DNA from: Sphingopyxis sp. YF1
GTDB lineage: Bacteria > Pseudomonadota > Alphaproteobacteria > Sphingomonadales > Sphingomonadaceae
Direction of reading: 5' to 3'
Assembly: GCF_022701295.1 (NCBI RefSeq)
Contig: NZ_CP033204.1
Coordinates: 3,465,001-3,529,000 of the forward strand
DNA: 64,000 bases
The first letter of the stretch is position 1, and every line of letters begins with the position of its first letter. Under the pieces are notes generated by a model. That model had not been told where the DNA came from, ran no database searches, and saw only the letters and a list, made by a program, of their open reading frames with translations. Positions 11,739 to 61,919 of this stretch are shown here, one piece after another. The position numbers and the translations under genes were made by a program.

Positions 11739-11820
11739 CCGTTCGTGTCGAGCGAAGTCGAGACACGCCACGGCGCAGCGCTATTCCGATGGGCATCTCG
11801 ACTTCGCTCGATGCGAACGG
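11739..11820. repeat. Palindromic REP-like element, GTGTCGAGCGAAG family
   Basis: Imperfect inverted repeat: arm 11739-11763 (CCGTTCGTGTCGAGCGAAGT...) and arm 11796-11820 match except at two positions. It shares its arm sequence with the perfect copy at 37319-37400. It occupies the prfA-prmC gap. Confidence 0.85.
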
Positions 11821-16985: not shown

Positions 16986-17054
16986 ACCGTAGCCCTGAGC
17001 CTGTCGAAGGGCGCCTCTCGGATAGGCGCCCTTCGACAGGCTCAGGGCTACGGT
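16986..17054. repeat. Perfect 31-bp palindromic hairpin, CCTGAGCCTGTCGAAGG family
   Basis: Arms 16986-17016 and 17024-17054 are exact reverse complements over 31 bases with a 7-base loop. It lies between the convergent ppa and mscS-type genes. It belongs to the same broad family as the elements at 19231, 39745, 41541 and 61833, and could act as a bidirectional terminator. Confidence 0.9.
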
Positions 17055-19193: not shown

Positions 19194-19230
19194 GCGTGTC
19201 CGTTAGCCCAATGTGCCCCAAACATATACC

Positions 19231-19315
19231 GTTCGCCCCGAGCTTGTCGAAGCGCCGTTCCTTCTTTCCGGCGCGGCAAGCCGAAGGCCGGTGCTTCGAC
19301 AAGCTCGGCACGAAC
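19231..19315. repeat. Palindromic REP-like element, GAGCTTGTCGAAG family
   Basis: Inverted arms at 19231-19257 (GTTCGCCCCGAGCTTGTCGA...) and 19289-19315 with few mismatches. It lies between metC and chrA. Confidence 0.8.
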
Positions 19316-19332
19316 CGATCATGGGAGTGAAG

Positions 19333-37318: not shown

Positions 37319-37400
37319 CCCGTTCGTGTCGAGCGAAGTCGAGACACCCCTCGGGAACGTGTGCCTTCCGGGTGTCTCGACTTCGCTCGACACGAACGGG
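37319..37400. repeat. Perfect 31-bp palindromic element, GTGTCGAGCGAAG family
   Basis: Arms 37319-37349 and 37370-37400 are exact reverse complements with a 20-base loop. The same arm occurs in the prfA-prmC gap at 11739-11820. Confidence 0.9.
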
Positions 37401-39744: not shown

Positions 39745-39833
39745 CCGTTCGTGCTGAGCTTGTCGAAGCACCGTCCTTCTCTCCTTCAACGCGGAAAGAA
39801 AGAGCAGCCCTTCGACAAGCTCAGGGCGAACGG
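39745..39833. repeat. Palindromic REP-like element, GAGCTTGTCGAAG family
   Basis: Inverted arms from 39745 (CCGTTCGTGCTGAGCTTGTC...) and ending at 39833, with a loop containing an A-rich stretch. It lies between the convergent ends of recG and the PilZ gene. Confidence 0.85.
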
Positions 39834-41540: not shown

Positions 41541-41574
41541 CCGTTCGTCCTGAGCTTGTCGAAGGACCGTTCTT
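41541..41574. repeat. Left arm of inverted repeat bracketing the GIY-YIG gene
   Basis: This 34-base arm (starting CCGTTCGTCCTGAGCTTG) is the exact reverse complement of 41864-41897. It begins 50 bases upstream of the nuclease ATG. Confidence 0.9.
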
Positions 41575-41590
41575 CCTTCACCTTCGCCCG

Positions 41591-42505
41591 ATGAGTTTCT
41601 GGGCCTATATGCTGCACTGCCGGGGCGGAATGTTCTACATCGGCCATACCGACAATCTGCCGCACCGGATCGGCCAGCATGAGGCCGGCTCGTTTCCGGG
41701 TTTCACCGCCGATCGCCTGCCCGTCACGCTGGTCTGGAGTCAGGAGTTTCCGACGCGATACGAAGCGCTGGAGGCCGAGCGCCGGATCAAGGGTTGGAGC
41801 CGCATCAAGAAGATGGCACTGATCAGGGGCGATTGGCACCAGATTTCGACGTTGGCAAAAAGCAAGAACGGTCCTTCGACAAGCTCAGGACGAACGGAAA
41901 AGAAGGCCGCAATGTCCCATACCCCCGCCACCGTTTGCCCTGAGCTTGTCGAAGGGCTGTCCTTGTCTTGCCACCCCGAAACACCTTGTGACGCAGTAAG
42001 GCGGATCACCGCATCCGCTGCCCGAAACGAATGGGGTCAGCTCGTTCTGCGCTTTCATGTCGTCGGAGATCTCCACCGCCTGTCGATACCGGGGCCCGTT
42101 GCCTATGCCCGTCGGAGCGACGGACTGTGGCAAACGACCTGTGTCGAAGCCTTTGCGAAGCCCGTCGCCAGCTCGGCTTATGCCGAATTCAATTTCGCGC
42201 CCTCCAGCGCGTGGGCCGCCTATGAATTCGAAGCTTACCGGCAGCCCATCGCGCCGCCGCCGCTCGACGCTCCTCCGATCGATGTAGAACTGGCGGACGG
42301 CGAAATGATCATTTCGGCTGCTGTCGATATGTCACCCCTGACACGGCTATCGGCGCGCAAGCCGTGGCAGATCGGCCTCTCCGCCGTCATCGAAGAGGTC
42401 GACGGCACCAAAAGCTACTGGGCGCTCGCCCACCCGTCCGGCAAACCCGACTTCCATCATCCCGATTGCTTTGCGCTGACGCTTGGGGCACCCCCCGCGG
42501 CATGA
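41591..42505 (+). CDS. GIY-YIG nuclease fused in frame to a DOMON-like domain through a repeat
   Basis: An open frame of 304 residues with no internal stop. Residues 1-90 form a GIY-YIG domain: [19 protein letters not shown] (Tyr and YIG), the Arg in [10 protein letters not shown], and the Glu in [13 protein letters not shown]. All key nuclease residues are present, and small YhbQ-like proteins normally end shortly after this point. Here the frame continues through the right arm of a palindromic repeat (encoding [12 protein letters not shown]) and part of another (CPELVEG) into a DOMON-like domain from about residue 125. Either a genuine fusion protein or two translationally coupled proteins is possible. 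Upstream bases are repeat sequence with only a weak ribosome-binding site. Confidence 0.7.
41864..41897. repeat. Right arm of inverted repeat, inside the fused frame
   Basis: Exact 34-base reverse complement of 41541-41574. The two arms enclose 289 bases, almost exactly the GIY-YIG coding part. The arm is read as codons GPSTSSGRT. Confidence 0.9.
41912..42505 (+). CDS. DOMON-like domain protein (alternative internal start)
   Basis: If read separately, this gives a 197-residue protein from MSHTPATV, with GAAGG five bases upstream of the ATG, a better ribosome-binding site than the fused frame has. The first 20 or so residues come from repeat sequence. The native domain seems to begin at [17 protein letters not shown]. 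It continues with [47 protein letters not shown] and [17 protein letters not shown], the pattern of DOMON-like proteins found in sphingomonads. Its ligand is unknown. The stop overlaps the NamZ-like gene by four bases. Confidence 0.65.
   Translation: MSHTPATVCPELVEGLSLSCHPETPCDAVRRITASAARNEWGQLVLRFHVVGDLHRLSIPGPVAYARRSDGLWQTTCVEAFAKPVASSAYAEFNFAPSSAWAAYEFEAYRQPIAPPPLDAPPIDVELADGEMIISAAVDMSPLTRLSARKPWQIGLSAVIEEVDGTKSYWALAHPSGKPDFHHPDCFALTLGAPPAA
41931..41964. repeat. Third, unpaired repeat arm at the start of the DOMON-like domain
   Basis: CCGTTTGCCCTGAGCTTGTC... has the same orientation as the left arm at 41541 and differs at a few positions. No partner arm follows nearby. It encodes [10 protein letters not shown] in the fused frame. 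Confidence 0.75.
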
Positions 42506-44966: not shown

Positions 44967-44969
44967 ATC

Positions 44970-45020
44970 CCCCTCCCTTCCAGGGAGGGGTTAGGGGTGG
45001 GTTGGCGAGCGAAGCTCGCC
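44970..45020. repeat. Palindromic repeat upstream of the DUF559 gene
   Basis: Palindrome CCCCTCCCTTCCAGGGAGGG (44970-44990 region), then the asymmetric tail TTAGGGGTGGGTT, then a second hairpin GGCGAGC-GAA-GCTCGCC (45004-45020). An inverted, degenerate copy lies after the gene at 45385-45420. Confidence 0.8.
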
Positions 45021-45036
45021 GCCCTACTGATTGGCG

Positions 45037-45444
45037 ATGCGCCGTGTTTCGAAAGAGATGACTGAACGCGCTCGACGGCTGCGGAATGAAGCGACGCCAG
45101 CGGAGCGAGCGATCTGGCGGCTCCTCTCCCGCTATCGACCAGCATTTACACGCCAACTGGTGGTCGGAACTTACATCATCGATCTCGCGTGCCGGGAAGC
45201 CAGATTGGCTATCGAATTCGACGGCAGCCAGCATCTCGATCAGGGCGCCTATGACCAGCGGCGGACAGAATTCCTGAAGGCGGAAGGTTGGCACGTCATG
45301 CGCATGTGGAACAGTGATGTGTTCGCCAATCCTGAAGGCGTCGCGCAGCTGATTCTGGAAGAAGCCGCCGAGTGCCTCGGCGGGACCCACCCCCGCCCCC
45401 TCCCTTCCAGAGAGGGGAGGATCAGAAAGCGACGCTATGCATGA
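45037..45444 (+). CDS. DUF559 endonuclease-domain protein
   Basis: A 135-residue protein of the Vsr/PD-(D/E)XK-like DUF559 group. The order is NEATPAERAIWRLLSRYRPA, FTRQLVVGTYIIDLACREAR, LAIEFDGSQHLDQGAYDQRR, and FLKAEGWHVMRMWNSDVFAN. The catalytic-type Asp and Glu-x-Asp are in YIIDLAC and AIEFDGSQH. The C-terminal 20 residues (HPRPLPSREGRIRKRRYA) are encoded by repeat DNA and are probably not original. The gene sits between inverted repeat copies. Its codon use looks less GC-biased than the neighbouring genes. The start could also be the ATG at 45058. It overlaps the convergent DUF817 gene by ten bases. Confidence 0.85.
   Translation: MRRVSKEMTERARRLRNEATPAERAIWRLLSRYRPAFTRQLVVGTYIIDLACREARLAIEFDGSQHLDQGAYDQRRTEFLKAEGWHVMRMWNSDVFANPEGVAQLILEEAAECLGGTHPRPLPSREGRIRKRRYA
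45385..45420. repeat. Inverted repeat copy at the 3' end of the DUF559 gene
   Basis: Read on the minus strand it gives a CCTCCCCTCTCTGGAAGGGA hairpin followed by GGGGGTGGGT, matching the upstream element in inverted orientation. It lies inside the coding frame. Confidence 0.75.
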
Positions 45445-61832: not shown

Positions 61833-61919
61833 CCGTTCGCCCTGAGCCAGTCGAAGCGCCGTTCTTTCCTCGCGACGTCGAAAGGAAGAACGGTGCTTCG
61901 ACAAGCTCAGCACGGACGG
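61833..61919. repeat. Palindromic REP-like element, CTGAGCCAGTCGAAG family
   Basis: Left arm CCGTTCGCCCTGAGCCAGTC... and right arm ending CTCAGCACGGACGG, with an inner hairpin GTTCTTTCCT/AGGAAGAAC. It sits between the convergent phbB and LuxR-HTH genes. Confidence 0.85.

Follow-up and report, generated by a model that had tools for sequence, protein, structure and literature searches.

An endonuclease gene between inverted palindromes in Sphingopyxis: a putative REPtron-like unit built on a GIY-YIG nuclease

How does a small endonuclease gene come to lie between two exactly inverted copies of a palindrome that recurs, without any gene, elsewhere in the same genome? The question is raised by a locus of Sphingopyxis sp. 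YF1, a genome made of a single contig of 4.37 Mb, in a stretch of 64,000 nucleotides (G000:C1:3465001-3529000) which we call the window. A preliminary description had proposed that this locus is a mobile unit in which a GIY-YIG nuclease takes the role of RAYT, a tyrosine transposase. The answer that we favour, with a probability of roughly 0.6, is that the segment 41541-41897 is a REPtron-like unit, where a small GIY-YIG endonuclease gene is bounded by inverted palindromes that its product putatively recognises and spreads.

The features that matter for the argument are collected in Table 1. The inverted arms of the unit, announced as perfect over 34 bp, are indeed exact reverse complements, and when they are lengthened to 38 nt complementarity is 97%; terminal inverted repeats such as those of an insertion sequence or a MITE are thus present, with arms of 34-38 bp. 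The third arm copy that had been reported further downstream is also there; it is found again in G046 (L165), and four further carriers (L166-L169) gave no sign of it. Between the arms, the protein matches a single profile, PF01541 of the GIY-YIG family (53.2 bits, E 3.6e-14, for a cut-off of 22.6), and no HUH/Y1 tyrosine transposase lies there. Residues Y16, R26 and E63, which we take to be the catalytic Tyr, Arg and Glu, are invariant across the 21 rows of the clade alignment, in keeping with the earlier remark that all three are intact. The profile match bears out the claim that the inter-arm stretch is essentially a GIY-YIG coding domain, but the frame that begins at ATG 41591 meets no stop before 42505: it reads across arms 2 and 3 and enters the gene downstream. 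It is possible that 41591-42505 is a fusion of the nuclease with that gene, or else that the latter has an internal in-frame start at 41912. The unit sits upstream of a neighbouring minus-strand gene which, from its protein, is presumably tyrS.

Table 1. Positions in the window of the unit, of related gene-less dimers and of a second nuclease gene
Feature	Position	Strand	Remark
Arm 1	41541..41574	+	GAGCTTGTCGAAG family; an imperfect hairpin in its own right; ends 16 nt upstream of the nuclease start codon
GIY-YIG nuclease domain	41591..41863	+	91 codons counted from ATG 41591; frame open up to 42505
Arm 2	41864..41897	-	arm 1 exactly reversed and complemented; read in frame as protein
Arm 3	41931..41964	+	85% identity to arm 1; within the open frame, near 41912
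Gene-less inverted dimer	39745..39833		arm family of the window's unit
Gene-less inverted dimer	19229..19317		arm family of the window's unit
Gene-less inverted dimer	16986..17054		GAGCCTGTCGAAG variant, outer bases differ
Gene-less inverted dimer	61833..61919		one arm is GAGCCAGTCGAAG
Gene-less inverted dimer	11739..11820		sister arm type GAGCGAAGTCGAG
Gene-less inverted dimer	37320..37399		sister arm type GAGCGAAGTCGAG
DUF559 (Vsr-like, PF04480) nuclease gene	45031-45444	+	arms ~44969-45003 and ~45385-45419, palindrome family CCCCTCCCTTCCAGGGAGGGG

The palindrome is far more frequent than chance would have it. Allowing at most one mismatch, GAGCTTGTCGAAG occurs 10 times in the window for 0.11 expected, a number reached in none of 100 shuffles. 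The nuclease-free hairpins previously placed at 16986, 19231, 39745 and 61833 are all there and their paired arms fold, with energies of -52 to -71 kcal/mol in the four stretches of dimers that were folded (RNA parameters). Co-variation is visible in the outer stem of the arms, pairs 1-4 being Watson-Crick in 54-60% of cases vs 29-35% after shuffling, in a loosely defined set of 502 distinct arms. CCGTTCTTCCTT, or a near form of it, belongs to both ends of the unit and to the dimers that begin at 19229, 39745 and 61833, as bases inside the motif. That the small hairpins derive from the unit, as had been suggested, is consistent with these arms and inner ends held in common, but their origin is something that we infer. 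At the scale of the genome, CTGAGCTTGTCGAAG with at most one mismatch is matched 64 times forward and 65 times in reverse, the reversed control pattern having no match, and among about 100 matches listed some 39 inverted pairs are formed, mostly 49-58 bases apart with a few at 36. The motif TGAGCNTGTCGAAG has 114 copies scattered over the chromosome, in a genome which codes for two nucleases of the clade of the window's enzyme (clade B in what follows).

Inspection shows inverted palindromes on both sides of each of the five standalone GIY-YIG genes in the genome. They are of different types: L001 and L003 (the window's unit) have GAGC-nn-GTCGA arms, L002 an exact 32-nt pair of the TGTCATCCCCGCGAAAGCGGGGACCCA type, L004 a CCCAGCGAAAGCTGGG pair, and L005 an exact 29-nt pair with CGTCATGCCGGACTTGATCCGGCATCCA inside. 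With the stricter arm score described below, four of the five pass, since L001 scores 11, below the threshold of 14. A sixth match to PF01541, L006, is taken as uvrC, its score being weak and its frame long.

The same layout was looked for in 39 genomes of Sphingomonadaceae, from 38 genera. They hold 134 matches to PF01541, brought down to 92 standalone loci after 39 had been judged UvrC (long frame, weak score), two pieces had been merged into one, and G010:C10 and G024:C3 had been left out. The arm score, defined as the best ungapped inverted repeat between the 400-nt flanks on either side of the domain, is at least 14 at 67 of the 92 loci and at least 20 at 57; the corresponding figures are 1/30 and 0/30 for PIN-domain control genes (the 30 best loci, from 30 of the same genomes), and 5/184 and 0/184 for offset positions within the GIY-YIG loci. 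Swapping downstream flanks between GIY-YIG loci, which share arm families, left 9.3% of 460 swaps at 14 or more and 2.6% at 20 or more; the 150 swaps made for PIN gave 4.7% and 3.3%, not below PIN's own 1/30. The association of nuclease and repeat within Sphingomonadaceae is therefore firm, and the link across genomes on which the preliminary description had staked its proposal is present. Nucleases deprived of arms, which at an orthologous locus it would count against the proposal, are a minority: 25 of the 92 loci, some of them incomplete or weak matches, score below 14, and one site of Sphingopyxis is concerned, where in two genomes (L011, L171/L235) a B-clade nuclease lacks a convergent arm pair, either by loss of the arms or as a gene kept by the host. 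Another arrangement is seen at L040 (G022:C1:1181229-1181916), where a B-clade nuclease has five forward arms to one side, in tandem and spaced by about 65 bases, and two reverse arms to the other.

The clades other than B led to a class of repeats already known. CGTC-tagged REPs are found mainly in Alphaproteobacteria and, according to the survey that defined them, apparently have no dedicated transposase (Di Nocera et al., 2013, PMC3733652). A strict scan for such palindromes (CGTC or TGTC tag, stem of 8-9 bp with at most one mismatch, loop of 4-6, convergent orientation) detected them on both sides of 33 of the 71 non-B loci, on one side of 19 and on neither side of 19, the count for both sides being 0/30 at PIN genes, 0/27 at full-length DUF559 genes and 0/142 at offset positions. 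At many of these non-B loci the arms are like the repeats described in that survey in their tag, stem of 8-9 bp, short loop, frequent CCA tail and head-to-head disposition; the survey reported no association of such repeats with transposase genes (PMC3733652), and here a GIY-YIG gene often lies between them. That the window's own arms are CGTC REPs is ruled out, as none of 21 B-clade loci passes the scan on either side: unlike those repeats, they are a further family, which does not have the CGTC shape. The pairing noted in the window is thus part of a picture wider than was claimed: CGTC-tagged REPs are the partners of other GIY-YIG clades, and a second nuclease family, DUF559, discussed below, displays a similar layout.

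If enzyme and repeat belong together, the type of arm should follow the descent of the nuclease. Arm labels, assigned by motif pattern, could be given to 58 of the 86 loci with a recognised domain, and a quick tree of 77 domains over 93 columns, many inner forks of which are unresolved, has 53 labelled rows that were counted and 24 unlabelled ones that were not. On this tree the label changes 9 times, for a least possible number of 4, when shuffled labels give a mean of 28.8 and never as few (0/200); GAGC-nn-GTCGA arms are set apart from the others by a branch with support 100. Nucleases of two or more arm types co-occur in eleven genomes, and labels were also shuffled within genomes only: the mean is then 25.8, the minimum 18, and none of 300 shuffles is as low as 9, so that genome background does not explain the match. 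The claim that nuclease and repeat are specific to each other is upheld by this contrast of 9 changes with a shuffled minimum of 18. As in REPtron, where the type of REP is specific to the subclass of the enzyme, specificity holds for the GIY-YIG clades.

The number of repeats in a genome goes with its nucleases as well. The B motif TGAGCNTGTCGAAG has a median of 43 copies in the 15 genomes with a B-clade nuclease vs 1 in the 24 without (p 1.1e-5), and the T motif CTGAACTTGTTTCAG a median of 6 in 13 genomes with the cognate nuclease vs 0 in 26 without (p 8e-5), these p values, like those that follow, ignoring kinship among the genomes. Crossed tests are weakly positive over all 39 genomes (p 0.008 and 0.042); when only the 29 genomes that have a standalone GIY-YIG gene are kept, the matched tests still hold, with p values of 7e-4 and 2e-3, and the crossed ones do not, with 0.22 and 0.35. 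The lists of cognate nucleases were compiled by hand, G007 (0 copies) being counted as T-clade, and G002 and G029 being so counted through short nuclease copies absent from the tree. Ten genomes devoid of standalone GIY-YIG genes have 0-2 copies of each counted motif, B or T. Exceptions exist in both directions: the B motif is present in 38, 29 and 17 copies in G002, G035 and G007, which lack a B-clade nuclease, and in a single copy in G025, which has one; counts for G005 and G023 are low because the B pattern misses the GAA/GCA arm type. Among the matches listed, gene-less dimers are spaced mostly by 62 bases for T, and mostly by 45-61, sometimes 32, for B, when the arms of units are about 356-378 (T) and 324-349 (B) bases apart.

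Outside the family, relatives of the window's clade number at least 552, and the best 80 were scanned in named genomes. They come from Sphingomonadales, Methylobacter and other Methylococcales, Thiobacillus, Gallionellaceae, Syntrophaceae and other Deltaproteobacteria, with one Chloroflexi record. For the 79 of these best 80 that are away from a contig edge, arms score at least 14 in 69, GAGC-nn-GTCGA motifs converge from both sides in 58, and the motif is found within 400 nt in 75; in 37 of the 79 the nearest upstream motif ends 27-29 nt ahead of the matched start. The nuclease is enclosed in Methylobacter, Methyloglobulus, Methylomicrobium, one of two Syntrophaceae and the Chloroflexi record, and two Thiobacillus loci and that of Gallionellaceae have the motif downstream only. 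The frame of the nuclease crosses the right arm in 42 of the 80 named loci, stops before or inside it in 24, and has no arm by that test in 14. In a phylum-wide sample, with the best locus of each genome retained, arms score at least 14 in 7 of 29 cases (one locus being incomplete and another probably uvrC), and in none of the 13 belonging to family f14, which means that not every GIY-YIG gene is paired with arms and that many elsewhere are of another kind; four of six further loci from this search have arms.

A mobile unit is expected to be found in different places in congeners. The tyrS site was retrieved in the 30 best-matching of 60 Sphingopyxis genomes, that of the window included, a choice biased towards carriers; seven of the 30 have the nuclease there (the source genome, G046, G087, G074, G041, G072, and G085 with a broken copy), and S. 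terrae (L213) is an eighth carrier. The other 23 sites are without nuclease, 22 of them having no B motif within 700 nt, and at some of these empty sites about 30 bp separate the genes. Four genomes, G044, G045, G070 and G047, none with a nuclease at tyrS, share a unit 73-79% identical to that of the window at a second site, that of L158. Movement is what fits this distribution best, with differential loss as the alternative, and the anticipated occurrence of one kind of unit at different sites is thereby observed. At the L158 site the interval is about 230-250 bases shorter in G096 and G092, about 270 longer in G000 and about as long in G081, and no nuclease match is listed between the flanks in these four. 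One relative, G095 (L164, G095:C16), keeps both arms around the first codons only, as a gutted unit. Units in the course of decay are also met, with a frameshifted nuclease at L169 (G085) and an early stop at L160 (G070). At the tyrS site of G056, G080 and G077 (L137, L145, L153), a CGTC-REP dimer and a lone remnant resembling the right arm replace the unit, the motif being intact in L137 only.

Dimer turnover between species is slow. When two species (about 94% alike, 141 kb) were compared, 21 of the 22 elements that could be resolved in one direction recurred in the other species, as did 20 of 22 in the reverse direction, and there was one clear case of presence and absence. A clean empty site was found neither in G087/G074, alignable over only about 17 kb of 400 kb, nor in G047/G070, and the single dimer present in one and absent from the other of G065/G051 has messy flanks; the empty tyrS sites are too diverged for a footprint, the L158 site yields none either, and neither target duplication nor an exact end was obtained. 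The nuclease itself is constrained, dN/dS being 0.02-0.11 in five pairs of four genes (4 of 12 genes, those recovered by pattern), with dS near saturation.

These observations may be read otherwise. GIY-YIG enzymes are known as homing endonucleases, and spread could resemble homing, the nuclease breaking both strands at an empty site or related palindrome and recombinational repair then copying the whole unit, with no transposition intermediate. The occupation of one place, next to tyrS, in eight Sphingopyxis genomes is what rare copying followed by vertical descent would produce; however, gene-less copies far outnumber units (114 of TGAGCNTGTCGAAG for two B-clade nucleases) and are scattered over the chromosome, unlike homing into a fixed allele, which makes us regard this route as unlikely. 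Slightly less probable still is that the nuclease serves the host, resolving or trimming the cruciforms of its own family or regulating itself through the arms, with no role in spreading. Strong purifying selection and the slow turnover of dimers would agree with such a function, as would the solved sequence relatives of the protein, which, besides the UPF0213-type PDB entries 1zg2 and 1ywl, include weakly SLX1 (7cq2, E 0.0063), a structure-specific endonuclease; yet it does not account for the inverted arms around the gene, for the 0-2 copies of each counted motif in the ten genomes without standalone GIY-YIG, or for the different sites of the unit.

In a further reading, a RAYT or other tyrosine transposase acts in trans and the nuclease is a mere passenger; RAYTs are held to mobilise GTAG REPs elsewhere. 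The profile Y1_Tnp (PF01797) is matched in 8 of the 39 genomes of the family, the repeat-rich G024 and G009 among them, but this search gave no match in the window's genome, nor in 31 of the 39, including the repeat-rich G038, G014, G018, G001 and G012. RAYT as a general mover is rejected on this account, a tyrosine transposase in trans seems improbable, and the part of the proposal which saw the nuclease in the place of a missing RAYT agrees with what was found in the window's genome. There is little to recommend a passive association, in which repeats would collect near dispensable genes or the gene would have landed by chance in repeat-rich spots: REPs abound in these genomes, for the most part between genes (PMC3733652), but the PIN genes (1/30), the offset positions (5/184 and 0/142) and the tracking of nuclease clade by arm type under within-genome shuffling (0/300) go against it, and chance or hitch-hiking is ruled out by these three controls.

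How would a REPtron-like unit work? The nuclease would nick or cut a hairpin or cruciform formed by paired arms, in a structure-specific manner like its distant relative SLX1; it is on this relationship, and on the long hairpins into which the arms of dimers fold, that hairpin or cruciform recognition, with cleavage at the foot, is predicated. A cut at the foot of its own arm might then allow the bracketed DNA to be copied or moved, the presumed job of RAYT for GTAG REPs, so that its own unit and, in trans, gene-less dimers could reach new intergenic sites at a low rate. Internal deletions keeping the arms and the inner ends would produce the gene-less dimers, and each GIY-YIG clade would serve its own family of palindromes, CGTC-tagged REPs among them. 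The proposal of a mobile unit with a GIY-YIG enzyme in the role of RAYT is hence sustained in part, by the link across genomes, by specificity, by the variety of sites and by the gutted copy, but that the nuclease recognises and cuts its arms, how copies are made and where the dimers come from are what we infer. Counting against it are the small number of units per genome, the slow turnover of dimers, the 25 loci with arm scores below 14, the genomes where motif and nuclease do not go together, and the scarcity of arms in the phylum-wide sample.

The likeness to REPtron, the association of RAYT (TnpA_REP) with GTAG REPs, takes several forms: a small enzyme gene lies between inverted REPs, the subclass of the enzyme is paired with the type of REP, gene-less dimers are present in the same genome, and the gene has a low copy number. 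The enzyme differs, being a GIY-YIG nuclease of about 90-105 aa, related in sequence to UPF0213-type standalone GIY-YIG proteins and weakly to SLX1, in contrast to a HUH/Y1 tyrosine transposase, and the arms are CGTC-tagged or GAGC-nn-GTCGA instead of GTAG. We may therefore consider the unit as REPtron-like in its working and yet not a REPtron, because a search for the Y1 transposase that defines the latter found none, in the protein or in the genome. Among the matches listed from the open-licence PMC literature, none links GIY-YIG genes to REPs. A parallel exists with DUF559: the copy in the window has an arm score of 12, and at 30 loci of the same bacterial family (L367-L396, three of them incomplete) arms score at least 14 in 22 and at least 20 in 18, the offset control giving 1/54.

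All this points to clade-specific GIY-YIG proteins as the partner enzyme that has long been lacking for a large class of bacterial repeats. A more general view, to which we give somewhat less than an even chance, is that standalone nucleases from two families or more, GIY-YIG and the Vsr-like DUF559 among them, have each founded minimal mobile units where a structure-specific nuclease and not a transposase spreads the palindromes that bracket it, that GIY-YIG is the missing enzyme of CGTC REPs, and that such units are the ancestors of a large share of the palindromic DNA interspersed in Alphaproteobacteria. If true, a regular, clade-specific GIY-YIG partner would provide the CGTC REP class with an enzyme and would assign a function to a large protein family so far known by its GIY-YIG nuclease name only, and REP-type repeats would have evolved with more than one enzyme chemistry. 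Should the nuclease mobilise the repeats, the unit would be of a categorically new kind, beyond a variant of REPtron.
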